Source of the DNA: Bacteroidota bacterium
GTDB lineage: Bacteria > Bacteroidota > Bacteroidia > B-17B0 > B-17BO
DNA length: 10,687 bases
NCBI GenBank assembly: GCA_025356715.1
Contig: JANXRU010000404.1
Location: 1 to 10,687, forward strand
Direction of reading: 5' to 3'
Both the position numbers and the translations under genes were made by a program. A model generated the notes under the pieces. That model had not been told where the DNA came from. It did not search any database and saw only the letters and a list, made by a program, of their open reading frames with translations. Position 1 is the first letter of the stretch. The number at the start of each line of letters is the position of its first letter. This document shows positions 1-10,687 of the stretch, piece after piece.

Positions 1-1
1 A

Positions 2-1288
2 ATGACCTACCCACAAACTTTAGATTATTTATTCTCTAAACTACCCATGTATCAAAGAGTTGGGGCGGCGGCCTACAAAGCCGATTTAAATAATACCATT
101 GCCATTTGTAAAGCCTTAGGTAATCCCGAAAAAAAAATAAAGTGTATTCATGTAGCAGGAACCAATGGCAAAGGTTCATCATCACATATGTTAGCGGCTG
201 TTTTACAACAAGCAGGCTATAAAACAGGGTTATACACATCTCCTCATTTAGTTGATTTCAGAGAGCGTATCAAGATCAATGGCAAAATGATTTCGAAACA
301 AGACGTTGTAACATTTGTAGAGGATTACCAAAAATTATTTGAAACCATAGAGCCTTCTTTTTTTGAATGGACAGTTGGTTTAGCCTTTCATTACTTTGCG
401 CAACAAGAAGTAGATGTTGCTATAATTGAAGTGGGGTTGGGCGGACGTTTAGACTCGACTAACGTGATAACACCCGAATGTAGCCTTATTACAAACATAG
501 GCCTCGACCATGTGAATTTATTAGGCGATACCATTCAAAAAATTGCGACAGAAAAAGCAGGCATTATTAAAGCACGTATACCTGTAACCATAAGCCAAAC
601 ACAACTCGATTGTTTAAACATATTTAATAATACGGCGCGTGCATTAAAAGCTCCCATTGAGTTTGCCGATAAAAATTATAAAATCAACGCTTTTTCATAC
701 TCAAACAATTTATTAAACATCGAGTTGCTTCATAAAAAAACAAATACAGTTCATTCTTACGAATTAGATTTGTTAGGTTCCTATCAACTAAAAAATGTAA
801 TGGGCGTTTTAAATACCATTGATATATTAAAAAACAAAGGCTACATCATTCAAGAACATGCTATTGTTGGTGCCTTAAAACGCGTACAAAAACTTACTGG
901 ATTACAAGGTCGTTGGCAAACTCTCTCTCAAAAACCTTTAGTAATAGTAGATACAGGCCATAACGAAGATGGGATTAAGGAAGTATTACAAAATATAAAA
1001 CGTTATAACTATACTAAATTGCATTTTGTTTTAGGAATTGTAAATGATAAAGACATTACTAAAATACTAAACCTATTACCAAAAGAAGCAACTTACTATT
1101 TTTGTAAAGCGTCTATTCCACGAGCATTAGACGAAAAAGAATTATGCATTCGAGCAAGTAAAAGTGGCTTAATAGGTAAGACTTACAAAACTGTTCCTGA
1201 AGCTTTAGAAAAGGCTAAAAAACAAGCAAAAGCAAACGATTTAATTTTTGTTGGCGGCAGTACATTTACGGTGGCCGATGTGCTATAA
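2..1288 (+). CDS. folC: Bifunctional dihydrofolate synthase / folylpolyglutamate synthase
   Basis: Cytoplasmic ATP-dependent ligase of the Mur ligase superfamily; the family joins glutamate to dihydropteroate and then adds further glutamates to reduced folates. The 428 residues show the family signatures in order: an N-terminal region with QRVGAAAYK (about residues 18-26), the P-loop GTNGKGS (53-59), SPHL with FRERI (80-90), EVGLGGRLDSTN (143-154), IGLDH (166-170), EKAGIIK (184-190) containing the lysine usually carbamylated in this family, GRW (303-305), and DTGHN (317-321) in place of the common DxAHN motif of the C-terminal domain. Length matches full-size FolC. The ATG lies one base inside the window, and the following residues fit a normal FolC N-terminus, so the gene is probably complete, although an upstream start cannot be excluded. 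It converges on the lipoprotein gene with a 20-base gap and no clear terminator hairpin. Identification is firm; whether it has one or both activities is inferred. Confidence 0.96.
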   Translation: MTYPQTLDYLFSKLPMYQRVGAAAYKADLNNTIAICKALGNPEKKIKCIHVAGTNGKGSSSHMLAAVLQQAGYKTGLYTSPHLVDFRERIKINGKMISKQDVVTFVEDYQKLFETIEPSFFEWTVGLAFHYFAQQEVDVAIIEVGLGGRLDSTNVITPECSLITNIGLDHVNLLGDTIQKIATEKAGIIKARIPVTISQTQLDCLNIFNNTARALKAPIEFADKNYKINAFSYSNNLLNIELLHKKTNTVHSYELDLLGSYQLKNVMGVLNTIDILKNKGYIIQEHAIVGALKRVQKLTGLQGRWQTLSQKPLVIVDTGHNEDGIKEVLQNIKRYNYTKLHFVLGIVNDKDITKILNLLPKEATYYFCKASIPRALDEKELCIRASKSGLIGKTYKTVPEALEKAKKQAKANDLIFVGGSTFTVADVL

Positions 1289-1308
1289 TTAAAATTGGAA
1301 GACTTTAT

Positions 1309-1773
1309 TTAATGCATTTTAAAAACAATCTCTCCCATATCTTTTTTAAAAAATGTATCGAATGTTTGCGGAATAATCTCAATAACTTTTTCGTGATTAA
1401 TAATCCGAATCTGCTTTAAATTAAAATTTCTTGAATTAATAAAATACTGATTATAGCCAGTGTAATGGTCGTTAGATAAATGTCCTATAATAACACTGCT
1501 ATTAGCAGGTATAACCAACTTAACAGAAAGAAGAGTTGTATCTGTATCTAAAATAGTTAAAGGGTTTTCCCAATCGATAGTTCCTGAAGCGGTTAATGTA
1601 TAAGCCGTTGGAATCTGATCAAATATATCAAAGCCCTTTGTAGAATCTTTTAATTTATAATCAATATTAATAGACGATGAAGACGTGTTTGAAATGATAA
1701 AATATTCTTGCCACGAACAGCCAGTAAATAGAACGGCAATAATCGTAAATAGAAATACTATTTTATATTTCAT
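1309..1773 (-). CDS. Small putative lipoprotein of unknown function
   Basis: This 154-residue protein starts with a short basic N-terminus, a hydrophobic core (residues 5-17) and LFTGC with the cysteine at 19. That is a plausible lipobox for signal peptidase II, so the mature protein would be a lipid-anchored envelope protein of about 136 residues beginning CSWQEYF. The mature part has alternating hydrophobic and polar stretches, for example LLSVKLVIPANSSVIIGHL, which suggest a small beta-rich domain. I recognise no family or catalytic motif. The ATG start is set by the signal peptide. The gene stands alone on the minus strand between folC, which it faces, and ruvB, from which it diverges across 178 bases. 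No consensus Bacteroidota promoter was found before it. The reading frame is very likely real; the function is unknown. Confidence 0.8.
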   Translation of the reverse strand: MKYKIVFLFTIIAVLFTGCSWQEYFIISNTSSSSINIDYKLKDSTKGFDIFDQIPTAYTLTASGTIDWENPLTILDTDTTLLSVKLVIPANSSVIIGHLSNDHYTGYNQYFINSRNFNLKQIRIINHEKVIEIIPQTFDTFFKKDMGEIVFKMH

Positions 1774-1951
1774 ACATTCTTATTTTTGAAATTAGCAATA
1801 GACTTTATATAATAATAAAGAATATTTTAAACTTAAGCAATAAAATAATTCAAATTCAACAATGAGGCCAATATTATTAAATTAACATTCGCTAAAATGC
1901 TACAATTTATAGCAGTAATACACTTTATAATTATGTACTTTTACAATAATA

Positions 1952-2980
1952 ATGAATGAAAATTTAGACGCTAATAACGAAAAGTTAACTAACACCGATA
2001 AGGATTACGAAAAAGCCTTACGTCCTGTGGAATTTGATGATTTCAGCGGGCAAGCATCGGTAGTTGATAATTTATTGGTTTTTGTGCAAGCTGCTAAAAA
2101 ACGCGAAGAAGCGCTCGATCATGTTCTTTTACATGGCCCACCAGGCTTAGGAAAAACAACCTTAGCTCATATTATATCAAATGATTTAGGAGTTAATTTA
2201 AGAGTAACAAGTGGGCCAGTATTGGATAAGCCGGGGGATTTAGCAGGTTTATTAACGAACCTAGAGCCGTTTGATGTATTGTTTATTGACGAGATTCATC
2301 GCTTAAGTCCCATCGTAGAAGAGTATTTATATTCAGCGATGGAAGATTATAAAATTGACATTATGATTGATAGTGGGCCAAACGCGCGCACTGTTCAAAT
2401 AAAATTAAATCCATTCACCTTAGTTGGCGCCACCACTCGTAGTGGCTTATTAACAGCCCCTTTACGAGCGCGTTTCGGAATTACTTCTCGTTTAAATTAT
2501 TACGACAGTAAAGTATTAACTGGTATTGTACAACGCAGTTCTTCTATTTTAGGTATTGAAATTGCAGATGAAGCTGCTTACGAAATTGCTCGCAGGAGCC
2601 GAGGAACGCCCCGTATAGCCAATGCTTTACTTAGACGCGTTAGAGATTTTGCTCAAATAAAAGGAAATGGAACTATCGATTTAGATATTGCAACTTACGG
2701 CTTAAAAGCTTTAAACGTAGATAAAAATGGGTTAGATGAAATGGATATTCGTATTCTTTCTGCCATCATCGATAAATTTAAAGGTGGGCCTGTTGGCATT
2801 ACTACCATTAGTACGGCGGTTGGCGAGGAATCAGGAACCATTGAAGAAGTATATGAACCTTTTTTAATTCAGGAAGGCTATTTAGCCCGCACACAAAGAG
2901 GAAGAGAAGCAACCGAAAAAGCATACAAACATTTAGGCAAATCTTTTAAAGGGAGATTAGGCGGTTTATTTGAGGATTAA
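1952..2980 (+). CDS. ruvB: Holliday junction branch migration ATPase RuvB
   Basis: Hexameric AAA+ motor that, with RuvA, drives branch migration of Holliday junctions in recombinational repair. All 342 residues align with the family by eye: N-terminal [12 protein letters not shown] (23-34), Walker A GPPGLGKT (62-69), Walker B FIDEIH (111-116), sensor-1 region GATTR (159-163), LRARFG (171-176) holding the likely arginine finger R172, sensor-2 region [18 protein letters not shown], and a C-terminal winged-helix part with GGPVGITT and TQRGREAT. The length is normal. The ATG has no Shine-Dalgarno sequence before it but an AT-rich leader, as is usual in Bacteroidota. It is the first gene of a run of four plus-strand genes; 38 bases separate it from the DUF433 gene. 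ruvA and ruvC are not in this window, which is common outside the proteobacteria. Confidence 0.98.
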
Positions 2981-3018
2981 TTTTTTATTTTAAAATTAAA
3001 TAAACTACCTTTAATGTA

Positions 3019-3240
3019 ATGAATTACTCTCACTTTATATCCATTAATCCAACTATAAGATTTGGCAAACCTTGTATAACTGGCACTCGTATTAGCCTAT
3101 ATGATGTATTAGGTTGGTTTGCATCGGGTATGACTATGGTGGAAATATTAGAGGACTTTCCTCAATTATCTAAAGAAAAAATACAAGCATGTTTGGCCTT
3201 TGCGGCAGATAGAGAACATCAGTTTAAGATTGCATCATGA
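3019..3240 (+). CDS. DUF433 family antitoxin-like protein
   Basis: A 73-residue protein matching the DUF433 family, known as the small helix-turn-helix-like partner of DUF5615 PIN-like proteins in VapBC-type toxin-antitoxin pairs. The family signature RFGKPCITGTRI is at residues 14-25, followed by the YDVLGWFASGM segment (28-38) and the DFPQLSKEKIQACLAFA helix (46-62). It appears full length. Its TGA stop overlaps the ATG of the next gene in an ATGA (3237-3240), the translationally coupled arrangement typical of these pairs. In the family the antitoxin neutralises its partner and may regulate its own promoter; that role here is inferred from family and context. Because the partner looks truncated, this may be an orphaned or relic antitoxin. 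The ATG at 3019 is preferred; another at 3014 runs straight into a stop. Confidence 0.88.
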   Translation: MNYSHFISINPTIRFGKPCITGTRISLYDVLGWFASGMTMVEILEDFPQLSKEKIQACLAFAADREHQFKIAS

Positions 3241-3425
3241 TAAACATATTATTAGATGAGCATCTTTCTTTTAAAATAAAAAAAGAATTGAAAATTTTTT
3301 TTGATAATTTAAAACACGTTTGCGATTTAAATTTAATTAATGTAGACGATTTTAGTACTTGGGATTACACAAAAAACCCCCATTATCCTATTATAACATT
3401 TAATGCCGACTTTATTAATTTCTAA
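3237..3425 (+). pseudogene. DUF5615 PIN-like toxin, C-terminally truncated
   Basis: The 62-residue product begins INILLDEHLS, with acidic residues D7 and E8, and ends ITFNADFINF, with D58. These are the usual start and central motif (often TxDxDF) of DUF5615 PIN-like proteins, the toxin side of DUF433 pairs. Full-length members have, from memory, about 100-120 residues and carry a PP-x-V/I and GN-type region after the ADF motif. Here a TAA follows almost at once, and none of the three forward frames up to the queG start shows the missing part, so this is more likely a deletion than a point frameshift. It overlaps the DUF433 gene by 4 bases. I call it a truncated, probably inactive toxin. A genuine short variant that keeps the acidic residues cannot be excluded, and the frame may still be translated. 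Confidence 0.68.
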
Positions 3426-3448
3426 AAATTTATTAGGTCTATTTATCC

Positions 3449-4366
3449 TTGAATTCCCAACTACATACACAACTCATTAAAACAGAAGCCAAACGTTTAG
3501 GCTTTGATTTTTGTGGTATTTCCAAAGCAGAATTTTTAGAAGAAGAAGCGCCTCGTTTGGAACAATGGCTAAAAGCCTCCATGCACGGCCAAATGCAATA
3601 CATGGAAAATTATTTCGACAAACGATTAGACCCAACACTTTTGGTAGAAGGTGCTAAATCGGTTGTATCTTTACTCTTTAATTATTACCCCGAACAAACT
3701 CAAAACCCTGATGCACCCAAAATTTCAAAATATGCCTATGGTAATGATTACCACGAGATCATCAAAGAAAAATTAAAAGAATTTGTTGATACACTCAAAG
3801 TTCACATTGGCGATATTAACGGCAGAGTGTTTGTAGATAGCGCACCAGTGCTTGATAAAGCTTGGGCAAAAAAAAGTGGCTTAGGTTGGATTGGTAAAAA
3901 TGCCAACCTCATTAATAAACAACAGGGATCTTTTTTTTTCATCGCTGAATTGATTATTGATATTGAATTAGACTATGATGGCCCCCTAAAAGATTACTGT
4001 GGCACTTGCACTAAATGCCTAGATTCTTGCCCTACAGAGGCTATTGTAGCGCCTTATATTGTTGATGGAAGTAAATGCATTAGTTATTTAACTATTGAAT
4101 TAAAAGAAGCGATCCCTTTCGAATTTAAACACAAAATGGATAATTGGGTTTTTGGCTGCGATGTGTGTCAGGATGTGTGTCCGTGGAATAGCTTTAGCCA
4201 AGTGCATCATGAGCCACAACTAAAAAACACCAATGGCTTAATTGATTTTTCTAAAGATGAATGGTATGAGTTAAGTGAAGAATTATTTAATTCTGTATTT
4301 AAACACAGTGCCATCAAACGCGCTAAATACAAGGGATTAAAACGTAACTTAGAATTTTTGAAGTGA
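3449..4366 (+). CDS. queG: Epoxyqueuosine reductase QueG
   Basis: QueG reduces epoxyqueuosine to queuosine in the wobble position of GUN-anticodon tRNAs, the last step of queuosine synthesis, using cobalamin and two [4Fe-4S] clusters. The 305-residue product shows FDFCGIS (19-25), [10 protein letters not shown] (128-137) containing the family's conserved active-site aspartate (D130 here), GLGWIGKN (144-151), a ferredoxin-like cluster motif with C184, C187, C190 and C194 followed by PTEAI, another cysteine at 210, and a second group C237, C240 and C244 ([11 protein letters not shown]). Length is a little under the roughly 380 residues of E. coli QueG, as in shorter family members. The start is a TTG: the next upstream in-frame codons reach a stop at 3434 with no ATG, and the residues after the TTG fit the normal QueG N-terminus. 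It lies 23 bases after the truncated toxin and converges on the next gene with a 5-base gap. Confidence 0.95.
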
Positions 4367-4371
4367 TTCGT

Positions 4372-5280
4372 TTAAATAGGTAAAAAAGGAATTGATCTCA
4401 TTTTTTCTTCGTATTTACAATTTAATGTACTTACAATATCATAAGGATCTGCTATAAAACAAGTTATTGAAATGTAAGTTCCATCATTAAGGATAAACCA
4501 TACATAAGAATAATTATCCCAAGATGCTCGACTTGAATCTGAAAATGTTAATTGACATCTAAAAATATCATCTCGATTAAACTTAATCTCTTTAGACCCT
4601 TTTAAATATGTTAATTCATGATTTCGTGTATCTATAATTACTTTCGCAGATTTATTTTTTATAATATAAGTTAAATGTAAAATAAAACTTGGTAACCAAC
4701 CTAAAATAAGAAATACATAAAGAATTACTGGTAATCCAAAATCTTTTATTTTATCTAAAACAAATAACCCTAAAGAAAAACCAAGCCATAAAAAAGTCGA
4801 ATACCCCAATGCTTTAAAATGTTTCGGGCTATACAAAAATTCCATATTTACAGGAGTCTTTAACTTTTTCTCTTCTTTAGTACTTGAACTAGTTTCTGTA
4901 GGAATATTTTTCAATTGTATATGAGACTCAATATTATTGTCAAAAAAGAAATCTATTATTTCTTCTACTGTATAATTCTTTTTTTCAAAGTCATTAGAAA
5001 TATAAAATTCAGAATATTTTTTACTGGCAAAATTTGAATATTCAACTGTAAAACCCTTTAAACTAACAGCTTCAATGTGCAGCTGTCTCTGGTCATCCGA
5101 TTCAAATATTATTTTAGGTATTGTTGGATTATCGTTACTCCTTTTATAATCGTTTATTTCTTTATCCCAAGGAAATAACTGAAATTCATCAATCGCATTA
5201 TCTTTGTCTATCATTCCTTTTAATTGAAATTGATCAGAATAATTCTCAGAATATTGTGTTTTCCAATTATAAATCGACAT
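4372..5280 (-). CDS. Two-helix membrane protein with a possible PH-like C-terminal domain, unknown function
   Basis: I do not recognise this 302-residue protein. Residues 1-130 are soluble, polar and acidic, with WK and PWDKE near the start; 131-141 is a Ser/Thr/Lys/Glu linker. Two hydrophobic stretches at about 157-175 and 182-207 look like a transmembrane hairpin joined by DKIKDFG. The tail, from about 212, reads as beta strands: KVIIDTRNHELTYLKG, KEIKFNRDDIFRCQLTF, then YVWFILNDGTYISITCF. This resembles bacterial PH-like domains that follow transmembrane helices, but that is a judgement from pattern only. There is no signal peptide, so both large domains are probably cytoplasmic. It lies 19 bases downstream of the carboxypeptidase-regulatory-domain gene on the same strand and is probably co-transcribed with it. 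Base composition is more AT-rich than in the housekeeping genes around it. Confidence 0.75.
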   Translation of the reverse strand: MSIYNWKTQYSENYSDQFQLKGMIDKDNAIDEFQLFPWDKEINDYKRSNDNPTIPKIIFESDDQRQLHIEAVSLKGFTVEYSNFASKKYSEFYISNDFEKKNYTVEEIIDFFFDNNIESHIQLKNIPTETSSSTKEEKKLKTPVNMEFLYSPKHFKALGYSTFLWLGFSLGLFVLDKIKDFGLPVILYVFLILGWLPSFILHLTYIIKNKSAKVIIDTRNHELTYLKGSKEIKFNRDDIFRCQLTFSDSSRASWDNYSYVWFILNDGTYISITCFIADPYDIVSTLNCKYEEKMRSIPFLPI

Positions 5281-5299
5281 AAATTTTTATACTTATTAA

Positions 5300-5998
5300 T
5301 TACTTCTTCTCATCTTTCCATCTGTAATAGCAATCCATTACGCGGTAGTATAAATCATATCCATCGTGATTGATGATATAATCATTACTTAAATAGTAAC
5401 AGTATTTCCTAAATTTCTCGAAATCAATTTTATCATCACCTGTTAATTTCCGTAATACCTCCGCATTAAATTTTTTGGCAACTTCTTCTTGTATAAAAAT
5501 ATCTTCAAATATTTTTGCTAACTTCCTTTGCTCTCTTCCTTTCTGACTAAACTGCATATATAGCGCAGAAATAGGGCTTTCCATCGCATTAATCACAGAG
5601 GTTTTAGATCCCTGAATGACACGTTTCATATAATCTTTTTCGTAGGGCTTTAATTTAAAATCACTCACCACTACTTGATTTAATCTATAACCAGATTCTA
5701 TCATCACTACTTTACAATCTTTATAAACGCCCTTATAGAGCTTAGCAGCTGACAATTTAAGACGCATATAACCAACAAAAGAAAAAATAATAGAGTCTTT
5801 ATCAGAGGCTTGAATGGAGAAACGGCCATTACCATCGCTCATTTTCCCAAGCCCTGTTTGCGCGTTAATCACATATACAAAAGGCATTGGCGTAACGCTA
5901 TCAGACTCTGTTACAATGCCTTTGATGGTATTTTGCGCAAAGACACAAGGCCCGTACCAAAAGAATAAAATAGCAATTATAAAAAAATGTTTCTTCAA
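5300..5998 (-). CDS. Secreted protein with carboxypeptidase-like regulatory domain
   Basis: A 232-residue envelope protein typical of Bacteroidota. Residues 1-21 form a signal peptide (MKKHF, a hydrophobic core, then a likely cleavage A21-Q22). Residues 24-100 match the carboxypeptidase D regulatory-like beta-sandwich: IKGIVTESDSVTPMPFVYV, then SDGNGRFSI and SIIFSFVGY, the same fold found at the N-terminus of many TonB-dependent receptors. The second half (about 115-232) is charged and probably helical, with SPISALYMQFSQKGREQRKL (141-160); it belongs to a group of Bacteroidota proteins of unknown function, and no enzyme motif is seen. The start is TTG; the frame stays open upstream to a stop near 6077, but with no ATG, and the TTG places the signal peptide correctly. 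It is the first gene of a likely two-gene minus-strand unit and diverges from dnaX. Confidence 0.85.
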   Translation of the reverse strand: MKKHFFIIAILFFWYGPCVFAQNTIKGIVTESDSVTPMPFVYVINAQTGLGKMSDGNGRFSIQASDKDSIIFSFVGYMRLKLSAAKLYKGVYKDCKVVMIESGYRLNQVVVSDFKLKPYEKDYMKRVIQGSKTSVINAMESPISALYMQFSQKGREQRKLAKIFEDIFIQEEVAKKFNAEVLRKLTGDDKIDFEKFRKYCYYLSNDYIINHDGYDLYYRVMDCYYRWKDEKK

Positions 5999-6019
5999 AA
6001 AAAATAGATTCAGAGTTTC

Positions 6020-6112
6020 AACACAGAGCCTATGAGTTTTTTGAGAGCACTGAGTTTTTATATAAATAAAATTCTCTTAAAAAAAACTCTGTACGCTCAA
6101 CTACTCTGTGTT
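6020..6112. repeat. Imperfect palindromic (interspersed-type) repeat with CACAGAG/CTCTGTG arms
   Basis: AACACAGAG (6020-6028) is perfectly complementary to CTCTGTGTT (6104-6112), and inside it GAGTTTTT (6052-6059) pairs with AAAAACTC (6082-6089); a short TGAG/CTCA pair lies between them. The result is a long imperfect hairpin with internal loops and an AT-rich tip. The arms are built of repeated words such as CACAGAG, CACTGAGTTTTT and CTCTGTG, a composition I associate with short interspersed palindromes seen in many Bacteroidota genomes; that link is from memory. Only this copy is present in the window. It lies between divergent genes, so it is not in the normal place for a terminator. Confidence 0.6.
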
Positions 6113-6130
6113 AAAAATAGTTGTATGTTT

Positions 6131-6138
6131 CAAATATA
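6131..6138 (-). promoter_or_regulatory. Possible -7 element of a Bacteroidota promoter for the 5998-5300 gene
   Basis: On the minus strand these bases read TATATTTG, an exact match to the TAnnTTTG element of Bacteroidota promoters. It faces the secreted regulatory-domain gene, whose start is about 133 bases further along. No TTG is found at the expected distance upstream, so only half of the promoter is supported, and the match could be chance in AT-rich DNA. If it is used, the whole palindromic repeat would be transcribed in the 5' leader. Confidence 0.3.
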
Positions 6139-6212
6139 AAGACTTATTCACAGTTAGTTAATAATTTAACCTTTTTTATAGGGATTTAAAGATTAAATTT
6201 AAACTTTCAATC

Positions 6213-7340
6213 ATGGATAATTTTATAGTATCGGCCCGGAAATATCGCCCCCAACACTTTAACACAGTGGTTGGTCAGAAACATATTACAGATACTTTAA
6301 AACAAGCCATTAAAAATAACAAAATTGCACAAGCGTATTTGTTTTGTGGTCCTCGTGGTGTAGGTAAAACAACCTGCGCACGTATATTCGCTAAAACCAT
6401 TAACTGTACAAGCCTTACTCATGATGGGGAAGCATGCGATGCTTGCGAATCTTGTTTATCATTCAACTCTGGAGCATCACTAAATGTGTATGAATTGGAT
6501 GCGGCATCTAACAACTCCGTTGAAGACATTCGTAATTTAGTGGATCAAGTTCGTTTTGCCCCTCAATTAGGCGATTACAAGGTATATGTCATTGATGAGG
6601 TTCATATGTTATCGAATGCGGCTTTTAATGCCTTTTTGAAAACCCTTGAAGAACCACCTAAACATGCTAAATTTATTTTAGCAACTACCGAGAAGCATAA
6701 AATCATTCCAACTATTTTATCCCGTTGTCAAGTATTTAGTTTTAACCGAATTAAATCGGAAGATATAACCGAGCAATTAGTGCACATTGCCAATAGCGAA
6801 GGTATTACGTTTGAACCTGAAGCATTGAGTGTGATTTCGCAAAAAGCAGATGGTGGGTTACGTGATGCGTGTTCTATTTTTGATCAAATGGTAACCTTTA
6901 CTGGTAATCATTTAACCTACAAAGCAGTTGTAGAAAACTTACATGTACTTGATTACGATTATTATTTTAAACTAACAGATGCCGCCATTAATGGGCGTTT
7001 ACCAGAAGTAATGGTAACCTTTGATGATATTTTAAAAAAAGGATTTGATGGGCATAATTTCATTATTGGTTTTGGTGAACACTTACGTAATTTATTAGTA
7101 AGTAAAGATCCTATTACGGTTCAGTTATTAGAAGTAAGTGAACAACTAAAAAAACGGTTTGCTGAGCAAGCTCAATTATGCCCAACGCCATTTTTACTAA
7201 AATCGTTAGCAGTAATTAATAAATGCGACATTCATTATAAAGCCGCTAAAAACCAGCGATTGCAGGTTGAAATGGCCTTAATGCAAATAAGTTATTTAAA
7301 TGCCGGATCATTAGATGCGGAAAAAAAAAAGATGAGTTAG
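6213..7340 (+). CDS. dnaX: DNA polymerase III clamp-loader subunit DnaX, zero-frame (gamma-like) product
   Basis: ATPase subunit of the clamp loader that opens and loads the beta sliding clamp during replication. The 375-residue zero-frame product covers DnaX domains I-III: FIVSARKYRPQHFNTVVGQ (4-22), Walker A GPRGVGKT (46-53), zinc-binding cysteines probably C65, C75, C78 and C81, Walker B VIDEVH (126-131), sensor-1 LATTE (156-160), the SRC arginine-finger motif (170-172), then a helical collar region to about 365. It ends EKKKMS at a TAG seven to nine bases past a run of ten A. That stop removes the tau-specific C-terminal domain, which continues in the -1 frame to 7936. The zero-frame protein is thus like the gamma form of E. 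coli (431 residues there). The ATG has an AT-rich leader; no consensus promoter was found. Identification is certain; whether the short form is a real product depends on the A-run length being correct. Confidence 0.95.
   Translation: MDNFIVSARKYRPQHFNTVVGQKHITDTLKQAIKNNKIAQAYLFCGPRGVGKTTCARIFAKTINCTSLTHDGEACDACESCLSFNSGASLNVYELDAASNNSVEDIRNLVDQVRFAPQLGDYKVYVIDEVHMLSNAAFNAFLKTLEEPPKHAKFILATTEKHKIIPTILSRCQVFSFNRIKSEDITEQLVHIANSEGITFEPEALSVISQKADGGLRDACSIFDQMVTFTGNHLTYKAVVENLHVLDYDYYFKLTDAAINGRLPEVMVTFDDILKKGFDGHNFIIGFGEHLRNLLVSKDPITVQLLEVSEQLKKRFAEQAQLCPTPFLLKSLAVINKCDIHYKAAKNQRLQVEMALMQISYLNAGSLDAEKKKMS
7321..7331 (+). promoter_or_regulatory. Frameshift / slippage site in dnaX (A10-G)
   Basis: A run of ten A followed by G sits at codons 370-373 of dnaX. 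Read in phase, it ends in A AAA AAG (7325-7331), the same slippery heptamer as in E. coli dnaX. A -1 slip re-reads it as AAA AAA and continues with GAT into the tau frame. Adding one A to the transcript by polymerase slippage, as described for the A9 run of Thermus dnaX, gives the same frame. The zero-frame TAG is at 7338-7340. Ribosome and polymerase slippage cannot be told apart from DNA alone, and a homopolymer length error would also fit. Confidence 0.7.
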
Positions 7341-7936
7341 GAGCAAATTTCCAACTTGAAGGTGAACAAAAAACCTTACCAACAGCCACGCCTTTCGTTA
7401 AATTTTCTGACACTCCTATTGTTCAAACCAGCGATAAGCCTGTTGTTAGCTTCAATGATCTTAAAATAAAATCGCAATTTTTATTACAAAATAATCCTCA
7501 ACAAGGGCAAGTCATTTCTATACAAGCTACCGCTACTGAAGAACAAACAACGGCAACATCCTTTGAAGACATTGCATTAACAGAACTTAGAGCACAAGAC
7601 GCTGTGAGGCAATTTGCCGAAGAAAAAAGTAAAACAGGAAACAAACAATTGTATGCCACCCTTACATCTAGTAAAATCAGCCTAACAGATACAACCATTA
7701 CGATTGAAATTAATAATGAAGTTCAAAAAGAATTACTAAGTAACATCAAACAAGATTTGTTAGATGCCATTAGAAGCTTACTGAATAACAAACAAACCTT
7801 ATTAAACATTGTAGTTTCTGAAATTACAAGCGAAGTAAAAGCCTACAAGCCTGATGATAAATTTAAAATGATGGCCGAAAAAAACCCTGCTATATTGGAG
7901 CTTAAACGACGTTTTGATTTGAATGTAGAGTATTAG
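7331..7936 (+). CDS. dnaX: DnaX tau-specific C-terminal part, reached by -1 frameshift
   Basis: This is the continuation of dnaX in the -1 frame. It is open without a stop from the slip site to the TAG at 7934-7936 and adds 201 residues after K373, giving a joined protein of 574 residues, in the size range of tau (643 in E. coli). The first part is a Gln/Thr/Pro-rich linker of the kind that joins the collar to the tau domain. The last 110 residues form a domain of the type found at the end of Bacteroidota DnaX: FAEEKSKTGNKQLYATL, ITIEINNEVQKELL, LLDAIRSLLNN, and KFKMMAEKNPAILELKRRF near the end. In E. coli the tau C-terminus binds the polymerase alpha subunit and DnaB helicase; that role is inferred here. 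A GTG at 7604 is in frame, but it falls inside the linker-to-domain region and is not a convincing independent start. Losing this part would probably uncouple the polymerase and helicase, so it is likely expressed. Confidence 0.88.
   Translation, partial: DELGANFQLEGEQKTLPTATPFVKFSDTPIVQTSDKPVVSFNDLKIKSQFLLQNNPQQGQVISIQATATEEQTTATSFEDIALTELRAQDAVRQFAEEKSKTGNKQLYATLTSSKISLTDTTITIEINNEVQKELLSNIKQDLLDAIRSLLNNKQTLLNIVVSEITSEVKAYKPDDKFKMMAEKNPAILELKRRFDLNVEY
7336..7355 (+). promoter_or_regulatory. Possible weak stimulatory hairpin after the dnaX slip site
   Basis: GTT (7336-7338) and GGA (7340-7342) can pair with TCC (7350-7352) and AAC (7353-7355), leaving A7339 bulged and a seven-base loop. It begins 4 bases after the heptamer and encloses the zero-frame stop. 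Downstream hairpins stimulate -1 frameshifting in E. coli dnaX at a similar spacing. This one has only six pairs and may be chance. Confidence 0.2.
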
Positions 7937-8069
7937 TTTTAAAAGAAATTATATACACCTACGCTATATTATCCCCTCCTAAATATTTACTGGATATATA
8001 TAGTATTTCAAATGCAGTCAAAATAAATATTATATTTAAAATATATTATAACCAAAATAAATAACTTTT

Positions 8070-9722
8070 ATGAAATTAAAAACTATTCTATCCTTATTGA
8101 TTTTATCGTGTACTTTTCATGTATCAATATCTCAAGTAACTGTTGATTTTAAAGATAGACCAAAGCCAGAGCCAACATTTAATTTTCGTAAAATATCATC
8201 CAATAAAGACTTTATATACAACCTCGGCATTAAAGATAAAGGTGAGGAGTCAATCTATTTTATTGAAAAATATAACGTTACTTCTTTAGGTTTAGAATAT
8301 CAAAAAGATTTAAAAATATGCGAAGATGATAAGGCAGCTCTTGTACACCCCCTCTTTGTACCTCCTGTTTGCTTCGAATACAATAATCAATTAGTGGTAT
8401 TTTACTGTAGTTACAATAAAACTGACAAAAAAGTAACCATTAATGTAAAAACGGTTAATGAAAAAGGAGATGTTAATTCGAAATTTCAATCTTTAATTAG
8501 CTCTAAAGATATTTCTGTGCAACTGGACGGAATGTATTGGAATATGATTGGTTATGAAAAACCTGTGATTGGCTACACACTATCTGAAGATAAAAAGACT
8601 GTAATAATTGAAATTGATTCTCCTAAATTTAGTAAGGTGTATGCATATGTTATTTCAGATTTATTGCTAGGAAAAACAGATCATAAAGAAATTGATTTAT
8701 TGCCATTAGTTGAAAAAGAGAAAATTATTATTAATCGATTCTTTATGATAAACAATGATTTATGTTTTTCTTATACAAAAAAATTATCAGAAAAAAATAC
8801 CGATTTTGGATTCGCAATTCTTGACAATAAAACAAATAATTTTCAACTTAAAAATTTAGGATTAAACGTTAACACATTGTTTTCTATTAACTATAAGGTT
8901 GATCAAACTACAAATAAAATATTTATTACAGGATATCTAAGATATTCCATTAACTCGGCAGAACCTATAAGTGTTGAAAATTCTAAAGTAAAACTATTTA
9001 ACGTTCAATATAATTTAACCTCATTATCTTTTGAAAACAAAAATGAGTTTGACTTTTTACCTTCTATAGCTAAAATAATATCAGTTCCAAAATTAAACTA
9101 TGGATTTATTGAAAAAAAACATACCCCAGATCAATACTTAGAAAACGTAGACTTACTGGAAAGCCCAAATTATTATTACAACATTTCACATTTATTATTT
9201 GGTAGAGGGCCAGGTGCTGCTATAATAACCCCATCACATCCTGGAGGGGATCCAATGTCTGGTGGTGGTGTTACAACCGTTAGCAGGGACATACTAGTTA
9301 CCAAATTTGATAAAACAGGGAAACTAATTGCCCAATATTTAATGCCTCGCGCTACAGGCTTCAATACTTTTGCGGGATCCAGAAGCGGGTCGTTAATTGC
9401 ATTTGCTAATAAACAACGAAATTTCAATTATGGAATAATAAATGACGACTTGCACCTCTTTTATTTAGATGCCAAAAAGAATTTATTTACTCCATTGGAT
9501 ACTTACAACCCAAGAGATATCAAAGAATGTAAATTTGGCGATGCAACCTTGGTACATTTCAGCATTAAAAACAATAAAATAGAAAAAGAAATTTTGATTG
9601 AAAAAGATAATAAATGTTTTTTCTATTCAAATCAAAATATGATAATTAATAATGCTGTTTTATTCGATTTAGAAATTGACAAAAAAAATTCACAAGTTGG
9701 TAGAATAATCATTGCTAACTAA
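8070..9722 (+). CDS. Secreted protein of unknown function
   Basis: A 550-residue protein I cannot place in a family. Residues 1-21 look like a signal peptide (MKLK, then a hydrophobic core to about residue 13, then a likely cut between S21 and Q22, a common site in Bacteroidota); C14 gives a weaker lipoprotein alternative. The mature chain consists of many short beta-strand-like segments with charged turns, such as NQLVVFYCSYNKTDKK, NDLCFSYTKKLSEK, and NYGIINDDLHLFYLDAKKN. This resembles a repeated beta-rich fold, possibly propeller-like, although no clear repeat unit was aligned. Residues 378-400 are an unusual glycine/proline-rich stretch (GRGPG, HPGGDPMSGGG) before VSRDILVTKFDKTGKLI. There is no C-terminal secretion-sorting domain that I recognise. 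The gene stands alone 133 bases after dnaX and 32 bases before pgeF. The ATG is set by the signal peptide. Confidence 0.82.
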   Translation: MKLKTILSLLILSCTFHVSISQVTVDFKDRPKPEPTFNFRKISSNKDFIYNLGIKDKGEESIYFIEKYNVTSLGLEYQKDLKICEDDKAALVHPLFVPPVCFEYNNQLVVFYCSYNKTDKKVTINVKTVNEKGDVNSKFQSLISSKDISVQLDGMYWNMIGYEKPVIGYTLSEDKKTVIIEIDSPKFSKVYAYVISDLLLGKTDHKEIDLLPLVEKEKIIINRFFMINNDLCFSYTKKLSEKNTDFGFAILDNKTNNFQLKNLGLNVNTLFSINYKVDQTTNKIFITGYLRYSINSAEPISVENSKVKLFNVQYNLTSLSFENKNEFDFLPSIAKIISVPKLNYGFIEKKHTPDQYLENVDLLESPNYYYNISHLLFGRGPGAAIITPSHPGGDPMSGGGVTTVSRDILVTKFDKTGKLIAQYLMPRATGFNTFAGSRSGSLIAFANKQRNFNYGIINDDLHLFYLDAKKNLFTPLDTYNPRDIKECKFGDATLVHFSIKNNKIEKEILIEKDNKCFFYSNQNMIINNAVLFDLEIDKKNSQVGRIIIAN

Positions 9723-9754
9723 AATAGTCGTTCAGTCTCCCTAATTTAAAATCA

Positions 9755-10462
9755 ATGCACTGGATTCATAGCCCAACTATTTCAACCATACATGGCTTTT
9801 CTACAAGGCACGGAGGCGTATCTCCAAAACCTTTTGACAGTCTTAATTTAGGAGGCATTGATGATTTACCAGAGAATATTGCCGAAAACAGAAAACGAGC
9901 ATTATCAGAACTACATATTAAGTTTGAACAAGTATCTTATTTAAATCAAATTCATAGCAATATCGTTTGTAAAGCCTCTACTGGTAAGCAAACAGGAGAT
10001 GCCCTCGTTTCAAATCAAAAGAACATCTGCTTAGCTGTTGGTGCGGCAGATTGTTACCCTATTTTATTTTATGATGCAAAAAATAATGTAATAGGTGCTG
10101 CCCACTGTGGCTGGAAAGGCACTTTAGCTCGTATAGTAAAAAAAACCATTAACGAAATGGTTTTGCTTGGCGCCAAAACAAAATATATTACGGTTGCCAT
10201 CGGGCAAGGTATTAGTGCCAAAAACTACGAAGTGAGTGAGGATGTAATTTCTCAATTTCAACAAGCAGGTTTTCCAACTTCCTGTTGGCAAAACAGGCAA
10301 TTAGATTTATTACAAGCCAATACATGCGTTTCTTTAGAAAACGGCATTCCAATAGAACATATTTGGAGTATGGATCGTTGTACAACTGAAGCCGATTTCT
10401 TCTCCTATCGTCGTGATCATGGTAAAACGGGCCGCATGTGGGCAGTCATTATGATGGTTTAA
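9755..10462 (+). CDS. pgeF: Peptidoglycan editing factor PgeF (YfiH / multicopper-polyphenol-oxidoreductase family)
   Basis: A 235-residue protein of the YfiH family. The E. coli member keeps L-serine from replacing L-alanine in peptidoglycan precursors, and other members act on purine nucleosides. Motifs in order are STRHGGVS (16-23), NQIHSN (64-69), GDALV (81-85), GAADCYPILFYD (96-107), GAAHCGWKGTLARIV (114-128), IGQGISAKNYEV (149-160) and TEADFFSYRRDHGKTGRMW (211-229). The metal-binding His-Cys-His triad is intact: H67, C100 and H117, with the same Cys-to-His spacing as in E. coli YfiH as I recall it. The length is normal. The ATG at 9755 lies 32 bases after the secreted-protein gene, and co-transcription is possible but not shown. 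No signal peptide is visible, so it is cytoplasmic. Family membership is firm; the physiological substrate is inferred. Confidence 0.93.
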   Translation: MHWIHSPTISTIHGFSTRHGGVSPKPFDSLNLGGIDDLPENIAENRKRALSELHIKFEQVSYLNQIHSNIVCKASTGKQTGDALVSNQKNICLAVGAADCYPILFYDAKNNVIGAAHCGWKGTLARIVKKTINEMVLLGAKTKYITVAIGQGISAKNYEVSEDVISQFQQAGFPTSCWQNRQLDLLQANTCVSLENGIPIEHIWSMDRCTTEADFFSYRRDHGKTGRMWAVIMMV

Positions 10463-10477
10463 CGAGATTTAATTGTA

Positions 10478-10550
10478 AGCAGAAAATCCCTTAATAATAT
10501 GTTAAAATAGGCTTAAATAGATAAAGTTGCTTTCTCAGCAAAAAATCCCT
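10478..10550 (+). repeat. Direct repeat AGCARAAAATCCCT, second copy in the typA promoter
   Basis: AGCAGAAAATCCCT (10478-10491) recurs as AGCAAAAAATCCCT (10537-10550), with 13 of 14 bases the same and start points 59 bases apart. The second copy lies between the -33 and -7 elements of the typA promoter and shares the first base of the -7 element. It could be a regulator site or a relic duplication. No known operator is recognised. Confidence 0.45.
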
Positions 10551-10557
10551 AATTTTG
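10527..10557 (+). promoter_or_regulatory. Bacteroidota-type promoter for typA
   Basis: TTG at 10527-10529 is followed after 20 bases by TAATTTTG (10550-10557), an exact match to the TAnnTTTG -7 element used by the Bacteroidota primary sigma factor, with a nearly consensus -33 element and spacing. Transcription would start around 10564, leaving a leader of roughly 17 bases before the typA ATG. This is the clearest promoter in the window and it separates typA from pgeF. Confidence 0.72.
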
Positions 10558-10580
10558 CGCCCTTAATCAAAAAAACAAAC

Positions 10581-10687
10581 ATGTCAGAAATTAGAAACAT
10601 TGCCATCATTGCCCATGTCGATCACGGTAAAACAACTTTAGTAGATAAAATTTTACACCAGTGTAATTTATTTAGAGAAAATCAAGC
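10581..10687 (+). CDS. typA: Ribosome-associated GTPase TypA/BipA, N-terminus only
   Basis: The gene runs off the window after 35 complete codons. The visible product begins [20 protein letters not shown], then [23 protein letters not shown] (residues 11-18) is the G1 P-loop of translational GTPases, and the [19 protein letters not shown] context followed by LFRENQ is characteristic of TypA/BipA rather than LepA, EF-G or EF-Tu. TypA is an EF-G-like GTPase that assists ribosome assembly and adaptation to stress or low temperature. The remaining GTPase motifs and the C-terminal domains lie outside the window. The ATG follows a leader of A and C bases with no Shine-Dalgarno sequence, and a strong promoter lies immediately upstream. 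Confidence 0.92.

Follow-up and report, generated by a model that had tools for sequence, protein, structure and literature searches.

A run of ten A in dnaX of Bacteroidota: a reversed, probably two-product gene whose tau frame flips among relatives, with probable transcriptional slippage

The DNA analysed here, which we call the window, is a stretch of 10,687 nucleotides from a member of the Bacteroidota (assembly GCA_025356715.1, contig JANXRU010000404.1, positions 1 to 10,687). It carries a dnaX gene whose zero reading frame ends just past a run of ten A, while the C-terminal part that would make the long subunit tau lies in another frame. Is this split an error of sequencing, the mark of a broken gene, or the design of a gene with two products, and by which route would tau then be made? 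Our comparison with relatives indicates that the split is genuine. We consider it likely that this is a reversed dnaX programmed for two products, in which tau would arise by transcriptional slippage on the A run (A10; An denotes n consecutive A) and the zero frame would be largely free to flip.

The split dnaX gene and its relatives

The elements of the gene are as follows (aa, amino acids).

6213–7340, plus strand: dnaX zero-frame open reading frame (ORF), 375-aa gamma-like product with DnaX domains I–III (PF13177, PF22608, PF12169, TIGR02397, NF011531 positions 1–372)
7317–7319, plus strand: GCG codon preceding the run, with a synonymous bias in the window's family
7321–7330, plus strand: A10, the putative slip run, located where domain III ends and followed by G at 7331 (sequence)
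7325–7331, plus strand: A_AAA_AAG heptamer, in phase with the zero frame, on which ribosomes might slip by -1 (sequence)
7331–7936, plus strand: tail specific to tau, 201 codons and a stop at 7934–7936, in the -1 (= +1 A) frame (NF011531 positions 461–613)
7333–7335, plus strand: TGA that shuts the third (+2 A) frame, one codon after the run (sequence)
7334–7357, plus strand: weak hairpin directly 3' of the run, of doubtful role (RNA folding, window z -0.79)
7338–7340, plus strand: TAG, the zero-frame stop that terminates the short form (sequence, ORF)
7583–7816, plus strand: folded core of the tau tail, tail residues 85–162 (AlphaFold; weak structural matches to 4tps, DciA and Escherichia coli tau)

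The zero frame starts with the ATG at 6213, and a Pfam search recognised in its product the clamp-loader ATPase, the lid and domain III. Across the run its codons read GAT GCG GAA AAA AAA AAG ATG AGT TAG, and both non-tau frames are shut immediately after A10. A first-pass annotation, made from the letters alone, had described a zero frame ending at 7338–7340 just past A10-G, an open -1 frame from 7331 to 7936 encoding a DnaX C-terminal domain, and a heptamer in the exact phase for a -1 slip. All of this was borne out: the NCBIfam search placed the N-terminal part and the tail on one DnaX model, at the positions listed above, although Pfam did not recognise the tail alone.

AlphaFold gave the tail a confident core at about residues 81–160 (predicted local distance difference test, pLDDT, 89–95 in blocks of ten), with a mean pLDDT of 71.3 and a predicted template modelling score (pTM) of 0.45 for the whole tail. 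A structure search with this fold returned no match at E<=0.001; the best neighbours were two 4tps chains (SirA with DnaA domain I; E 5.5e-03 and 1.5e-02), which we take by their chain length to be the DnaA part. DciA came third, and the E. coli replicase chain 5fku_E and tau 2aya were weak matches at ranks 15 and 25. Nonsynonymous (dN) and synonymous (dS) divergence was measured over the last 110 codons of the tail. Between the window and L001 (loci from other genomes are numbered Lnnn, and genomes whose family or order was searched Gnnn) dN was 0.044 and dS 0.899. Among reversed pairs, dN and dS were 0.200 and 2.116 for L006–L007 and 0.221 and 1.504 for L006–L008, dN was 0.100 with saturated dS for L007–L008, and the window against L006, L007 and L008 gave dN of 0.229–0.288 with saturated dS. 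These figures indicate that the tau tail is under purifying selection.

The same arrangement recurred in other genomes. L229, from a different genome, is 97% identical to the window in protein and 85% in DNA and has A10 followed by TAG, as do L006, L241 and L245 (93, 90 and 85% protein identity). L001 (94% DnaX identity) has A11 and one continuous frame of 574 aa. Among the best 120 of 7998 scored candidate proteins, 27 were short (367–379 aa) and 93 long (567–599 aa), and every one of these 27 short proteins ended in EKKK plus 1–4 residues. The family of G001 gave a match in 82 of 87 genomes; with nine partial rows excluded, its 74 rows with an intact start comprised 17 short proteins, 56 long ones and one of 482 aa. 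The 30 best-scoring loci of this family (three of them duplicates of L001, L006 and L008) had A10 in 29 cases and A11 in one, 9 being short and 21 long, and the run kept its position in all 30 (gene offset 1105–1117). In the 80 loci of a first scan plus the window, a linker run of at least nine A was present in 56 of 81, while elsewhere in the run-bearing loci longer than 6 kb there were 19 runs of at least nine A or T in 637 kb; the linker run thus exceeds chance. A search of plasmid records with the window gave no match. We conclude from these recurrences that the reversed arrangement is real and not a miscount. Since the split is real, occurs in independent genomes and is followed by a tail under selection, tau must come from a shift, which supports the earlier proposal that normal decoding yields the short form and that the long subunit needs slippage. 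By a further suggestion of the first-pass annotation, slippage efficiency might set the amount of tau and with it the coupling of polymerase and helicase.

Run length, tau frame and closing stops

A wide survey started from the window and 228 other dnaX loci; with duplicates and the partial locus L037 removed, it covered 225 distinct ones. A linker run of at least nine A was found in 144 of them and none in 81. Four of the run-bearing loci (L153, L154, L155, L188) had no frame open for 100 codons past the run and were excluded, leaving 140 for analysis. In these, tau could be read without any change in 61 loci, with one additional A in 59 (tau+1) and with two additional A, or one fewer, in 20 (tau+2). 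The numbers of loci needing 0, +1 and +2 A were 12, 3 and 0 for A9; 43, 51 and 15 for A10; 6, 5 and 4 for A11; and 0, 0 and 1 for A12. A10, with 109 of the 140 loci, was therefore the most frequent length in every class. The order to which G013 belongs (its locus L068 bears the title of a Flavobacteriales metagenome-assembled genome) gave a match in 115 of 120 genomes, and 112 rows, counted after exclusion of four partial or duplicate ones, comprised 75 short (<470 aa) and 37 long proteins. A10 or A11 was present in 40 of 40 loci taken from the middle and lower ranks of this order and in 28 of the 30 top-ranked loci (L159–L188), the exceptions being L186 (A7) and L187 (A6).

How often had the frame changed? 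A tree of near relatives (the window, 120 proteins and 19 loci) was built by a quick method from the N-terminal 352 residues ahead of the run, with 58 of 126 inner branches left open. Parsimony required at least 16 changes between long and short on it, or 14 with five distant rows left uncounted. The tree of the 140 loci was also made by a quick method and left open 42 of its 137 inner branches; on it the parsimony minima were 26 changes of tau frame, 18 between long and short, and 9 of direction among the shorts. Individual pairs told the same: P0094 (short) and P0110 (long) were identical across the tree columns used, the short A10 gene of the window and the long A11 gene of L001 differ by a single base in run length, and in Hymenobacter the long L033 with A10 and the short L036 with A9 share one and the same flank. 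L012, found in the family search of G004, has A11 followed by TGA and needs the opposite shift to the window. These comparisons indicate that the genomic tau frame flips repeatedly and in both directions.

Both non-tau frames were shut within 6 codons after the run in 118 of the 140 loci and within 9 codons in 137, compared with 15.3% and 26.3% at 22,791 control positions in the same tails; the corresponding values at codons 358–391 of 25 hand-listed long genes without run or +1 motif (see below) were 9.8% and 19.1%. As the closing stops are enriched in both off frames, the short product looks programmed even where tau is the zero frame, an arrangement that PMC1088944 and PMC5009743 describe for Thermus. 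The codons just upstream of the run were also biased. GCG preceded it in 31 of 33 distinct loci of the window's family, against a usage of 0.18 in the gene, and GAG accounted for 22 of 22 Glu codons before the run in one Flavobacteriales set, against a usage of 0.23. Such synonymous bias, seen in several clades, hints at an upstream cis-element.

Five loci carry an A10 or A11 run about 70–85 codons downstream of the usual place (L042 and L051 at offset ~1360; L047, L048 and L052 at ~1320–1350), with both off frames shut within 7 codons after it. The slip site in these genes would have been relocated or would have newly arisen.

Routes to tau

In the route that we favour, RNA polymerase would slip on A10 and release transcripts with varied numbers of A. 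Transcripts of the templated length would yield the 375-aa gamma-like clamp-loader subunit, those longer by one A (or by one modulo 3) the 574-aa tau with its C-terminal domain, and every other length would lead to termination within a few codons and again to a gamma-like product. Selection would maintain a run of mostly ten A together with both closing stops, and the zero frame could flip almost freely among close relatives. What the comparison shows is the sequence, its conservation, the selection on the tail, the stops in both off frames and the repeated flips in both directions; that the slip occurs at transcription, its rate, and that the replisome uses both products are our inference. 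The survey of 140 loci and its tree revealed orthologues that need different directions of shift. Antonov et al. (PMC3711429) take such differences between orthologues as a sign of transcriptional realignment; by this rule the slippage here would be transcriptional. RNA folding downstream of the run in six sequences gave z-scores of -0.42 to -1.62, with one of +0.40. In 20 of the 140 relatives tau requires the other shift, and no strong structure was found past the run; transcriptional slippage is therefore more probable than a -1 ribosomal slip.

Several observations nevertheless weigh against slippage at transcription or against its generality, and some favour programmed -1 ribosomal frameshifting of the E. 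coli type on A_AAA_AAG, with the roles of the frames reversed. In the window the heptamer lies in the exact phase, and a -1 slip on it would yield an identical tau. The layout of the window (phase 1, A10, then G) is shared by 28 of the 59 tau+1 genes, and tau+1 genes (59) outnumber tau+2 genes (20). In the window, L001 and L006 a small hairpin, similar in shape, begins 3–4 bases past the run, and L142 and L186 are reversed with an in-phase A_AAA_AAG and no run of at least nine A. Chlorobium phaeobacteroides is named as such a candidate in a section of the 2016 review by Atkins et al. (PMC5009743). As to a Shine–Dalgarno (SD)-like stimulator upstream, another feature of the E. coli type, Bacteroidia are described in part of PMC8710568 as seldom using SD sites. 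Yet a -1 slip cannot produce tau in the 20 of 140 genes that need +2 A (or -1 A), direction changed at least nine times among the shorts, and T or C directly follows the run in 22 of the 59 tau+1 genes. The fold z-scores are weak, RNA folding gave no hairpin of that shape in L007, L008 or L012, and a plain heptamer would not require ten A. We therefore regard ribosomal frameshifting as unlikely, and retain it because both routes give the same protein in the window; L142 and L186, with the heptamer but no long run, suggest that a ribosomal version may exist nearby. Other points concern the counts. Many weak forks in the trees may inflate the numbers of changes, but the near-identical long and short pairs need no tree, so the flips there are unaffected. 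The controls for the closing stops sit elsewhere in the tails or in other genes, whose composition may differ from that of the linker. Thirteen of the 79 shorts were drawn from loci chosen for short frames, so the share of shorts in the survey is inflated, whereas the counts for the G001 family and the G013 order are unaffected. Finally, 25 run-less loci have a long zero frame and none of the sought shift-site signs; with 81 of 225 loci lacking a run of at least nine A, not every dnaX here has two products.

The remaining explanations would do away with a programmed shift or with a single tau polypeptide, and we give them very little weight. A homopolymer miscounted in sequencing or assembly, with a true run of 11, was the main alternative of the first-pass annotation and would fit the continuous A11 frame of L001. 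It is refuted for the clade by four other genomes (85–97% protein identity) that repeat A10 and the stop, by the 27 short proteins among the best 120 and by the 75 short rows of 112 in the G013 order, and we hold an error in the window itself to be extremely improbable. Barely more credible is a recent frameshift mutation that leaves the short form alone and a decaying tail: the run is one base off that of L001, but the tails of reversed genes are under purifying selection, no further stop interrupts the 201 codons, and other species are in the same state. Separate production of the tail by re-initiation might be suggested by the zero-frame stop adjoining the tail frame; we hold it to be most improbable, as the first ATG, GTG or TTG that the tau frame offers past the run falls anywhere from codon 0 to 128 across the 79 shorts, with no common position, and the first candidate in the window is a GTG at 7604, inside the folded core.

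Run-less relatives, neighbouring genes and known systems

The 81 run-less loci comprised 16 Pontibacter loci with A7, 36 with a +1 motif and 29 others, most of which came from searching the order of G010. In L053:6001-7143, L056, L082–L084, L111–L138 and L156–L158, dnaX has no A run and carries its tau tail in the +1 frame. The zero frame of the 36 loci counted ends at 368–384 aa, and in 36 of 36 the sequence AGG CAA, then YC, stands in the zero-frame phase ahead of the stop. The base at -3 is G in 97% of them, AGG makes up 5.2% of the upstream Arg codons of the same genes, and two loci have CCA instead of TCA, a synonymous change for the +1 frame (AAT to AAC). Nine pairs of tails were compared: seven had finite dS and dN/dS of ~0.02–0.19, and two had saturated dS with dN of 0.088 and 0.115. 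A +1-frame stop in L117 overlaps the codon preceding AGG, and the zero-frame stop of L156–L158 is the third codon past AGG; together they place the shift at AGG or its neighbours. Among the matches listed as nearest to the DnaX of L053, 120 of 120 were at most 384 aa, L053 included. The two subclades with the motif were not joined in FastTree (2 changes), their placement being unsure. We propose the motif as a candidate site of +1 programmed frameshifting for tau in some Bacteroidales, presumably ribosomal. AGG CAA YC may resemble the +1 sites of yeast Ty1 and Ty3.

Pontibacter (L015–L030, L060) has A7 in phase 2, forming an A_AAA_AAA heptamer, at roughly the same place, with tau in the zero frame, and in all 17 loci each off frame meets a stop within 3 codons; this layout resembles that of E. 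coli dnaX. In L187, which has no A run, the zero frame ends at 372 aa and a long other frame opens 4 codons before the stop.

Elsewhere in the window, a 550-aa gene at 8070–9722 stands between dnaX and the next conserved gene and had no Pfam match. The matches flanking it abut in L001 and lie ~540 bases apart in L229, so the gene seems absent from both. At 3019–3425 a DUF433 gene is followed by a DUF5615 gene that matches profile positions 2–60 of 110 only, presumably a truncated pair of toxin–antitoxin type.

Taken together, these findings incline us slightly towards the view that the A-run dnaX of Bacteroidota is frame-agnostic: a run of about ten A and two stops would be selected, the frame would be near neutral and drift by single-base insertions and deletions, and some run-less lineages would substitute another device, namely the +1 site AGG CAA YC in some Bacteroidales and the 7-A heptamer in Pontibacter. 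As other devices would replace the run in some lineages, it would be the two-product output that is kept, rather than any one mechanism; about 25 other loci without such a device may have lost it. The need for the short DnaX form is called controversial for E. coli in part of the 2016 review (PMC5009743). Here a two-product device that bears signs of selection persists in numerous genomes of a single phylum while the frame flips, which argues that both forms are useful. In practice, gene callers cut such dnaX genes short, and the named 375-aa products are labelled simply gamma/tau. The natural variants with A9, A10 or A11 and different frames make slippage and its dose effect testable.

Among known systems, the dnaX of Thermus thermophilus is reportedly the subject of Larsen et al. 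2000. It has A9, tau in the zero frame and nearby stops in both non-tau frames, as outlined in portions of PMC1088944 and PMC5009743. The window and its relatives share the A run and the nearby stops, but the window has A10 and its zero frame encodes the short form, not tau. In E. coli, a -1 ribosomal frameshift produces gamma and tau from one gene (sections of PMC5009743 and PMC3711429); the window has the same in-phase A_AAA_AAG, whereas its roles are reversed, tau not being the zero frame, its run exceeds the heptamer and its hairpin is weak. In Blochmannia, a homopolymer frameshift in dnaX is thought to be rescued by transcriptional slippage, but there, as a passage of PMC3017870 has it, the host gene belongs to an endosymbiont whose genes are eroding, and the shift is placed downstream of its gamma site.

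The closest precedent is Antonov et al. 2013 (PMC3711429), in an excerpt of which 17 reversed dnaX genes from 12 genera are described. Twelve of the genes contain poly-A, which in nine is ten A long, and transcriptional realignment is proposed. The kind of gene and the idea were thus already known. As in those genes, the zero frame here ends just past the slip site with the tau domain in another frame, and poly-A, often of ten A, marks the transition. Our search of the open-access literature met no report of repeated dnaX flipping across Bacteroidota and none of a +1 site in dnaX, an absence that is weak evidence. Beyond what that excerpt describes, the required direction varies among the relatives analysed here and the frame flips often, and this repeated flipping is what the present analysis adds.
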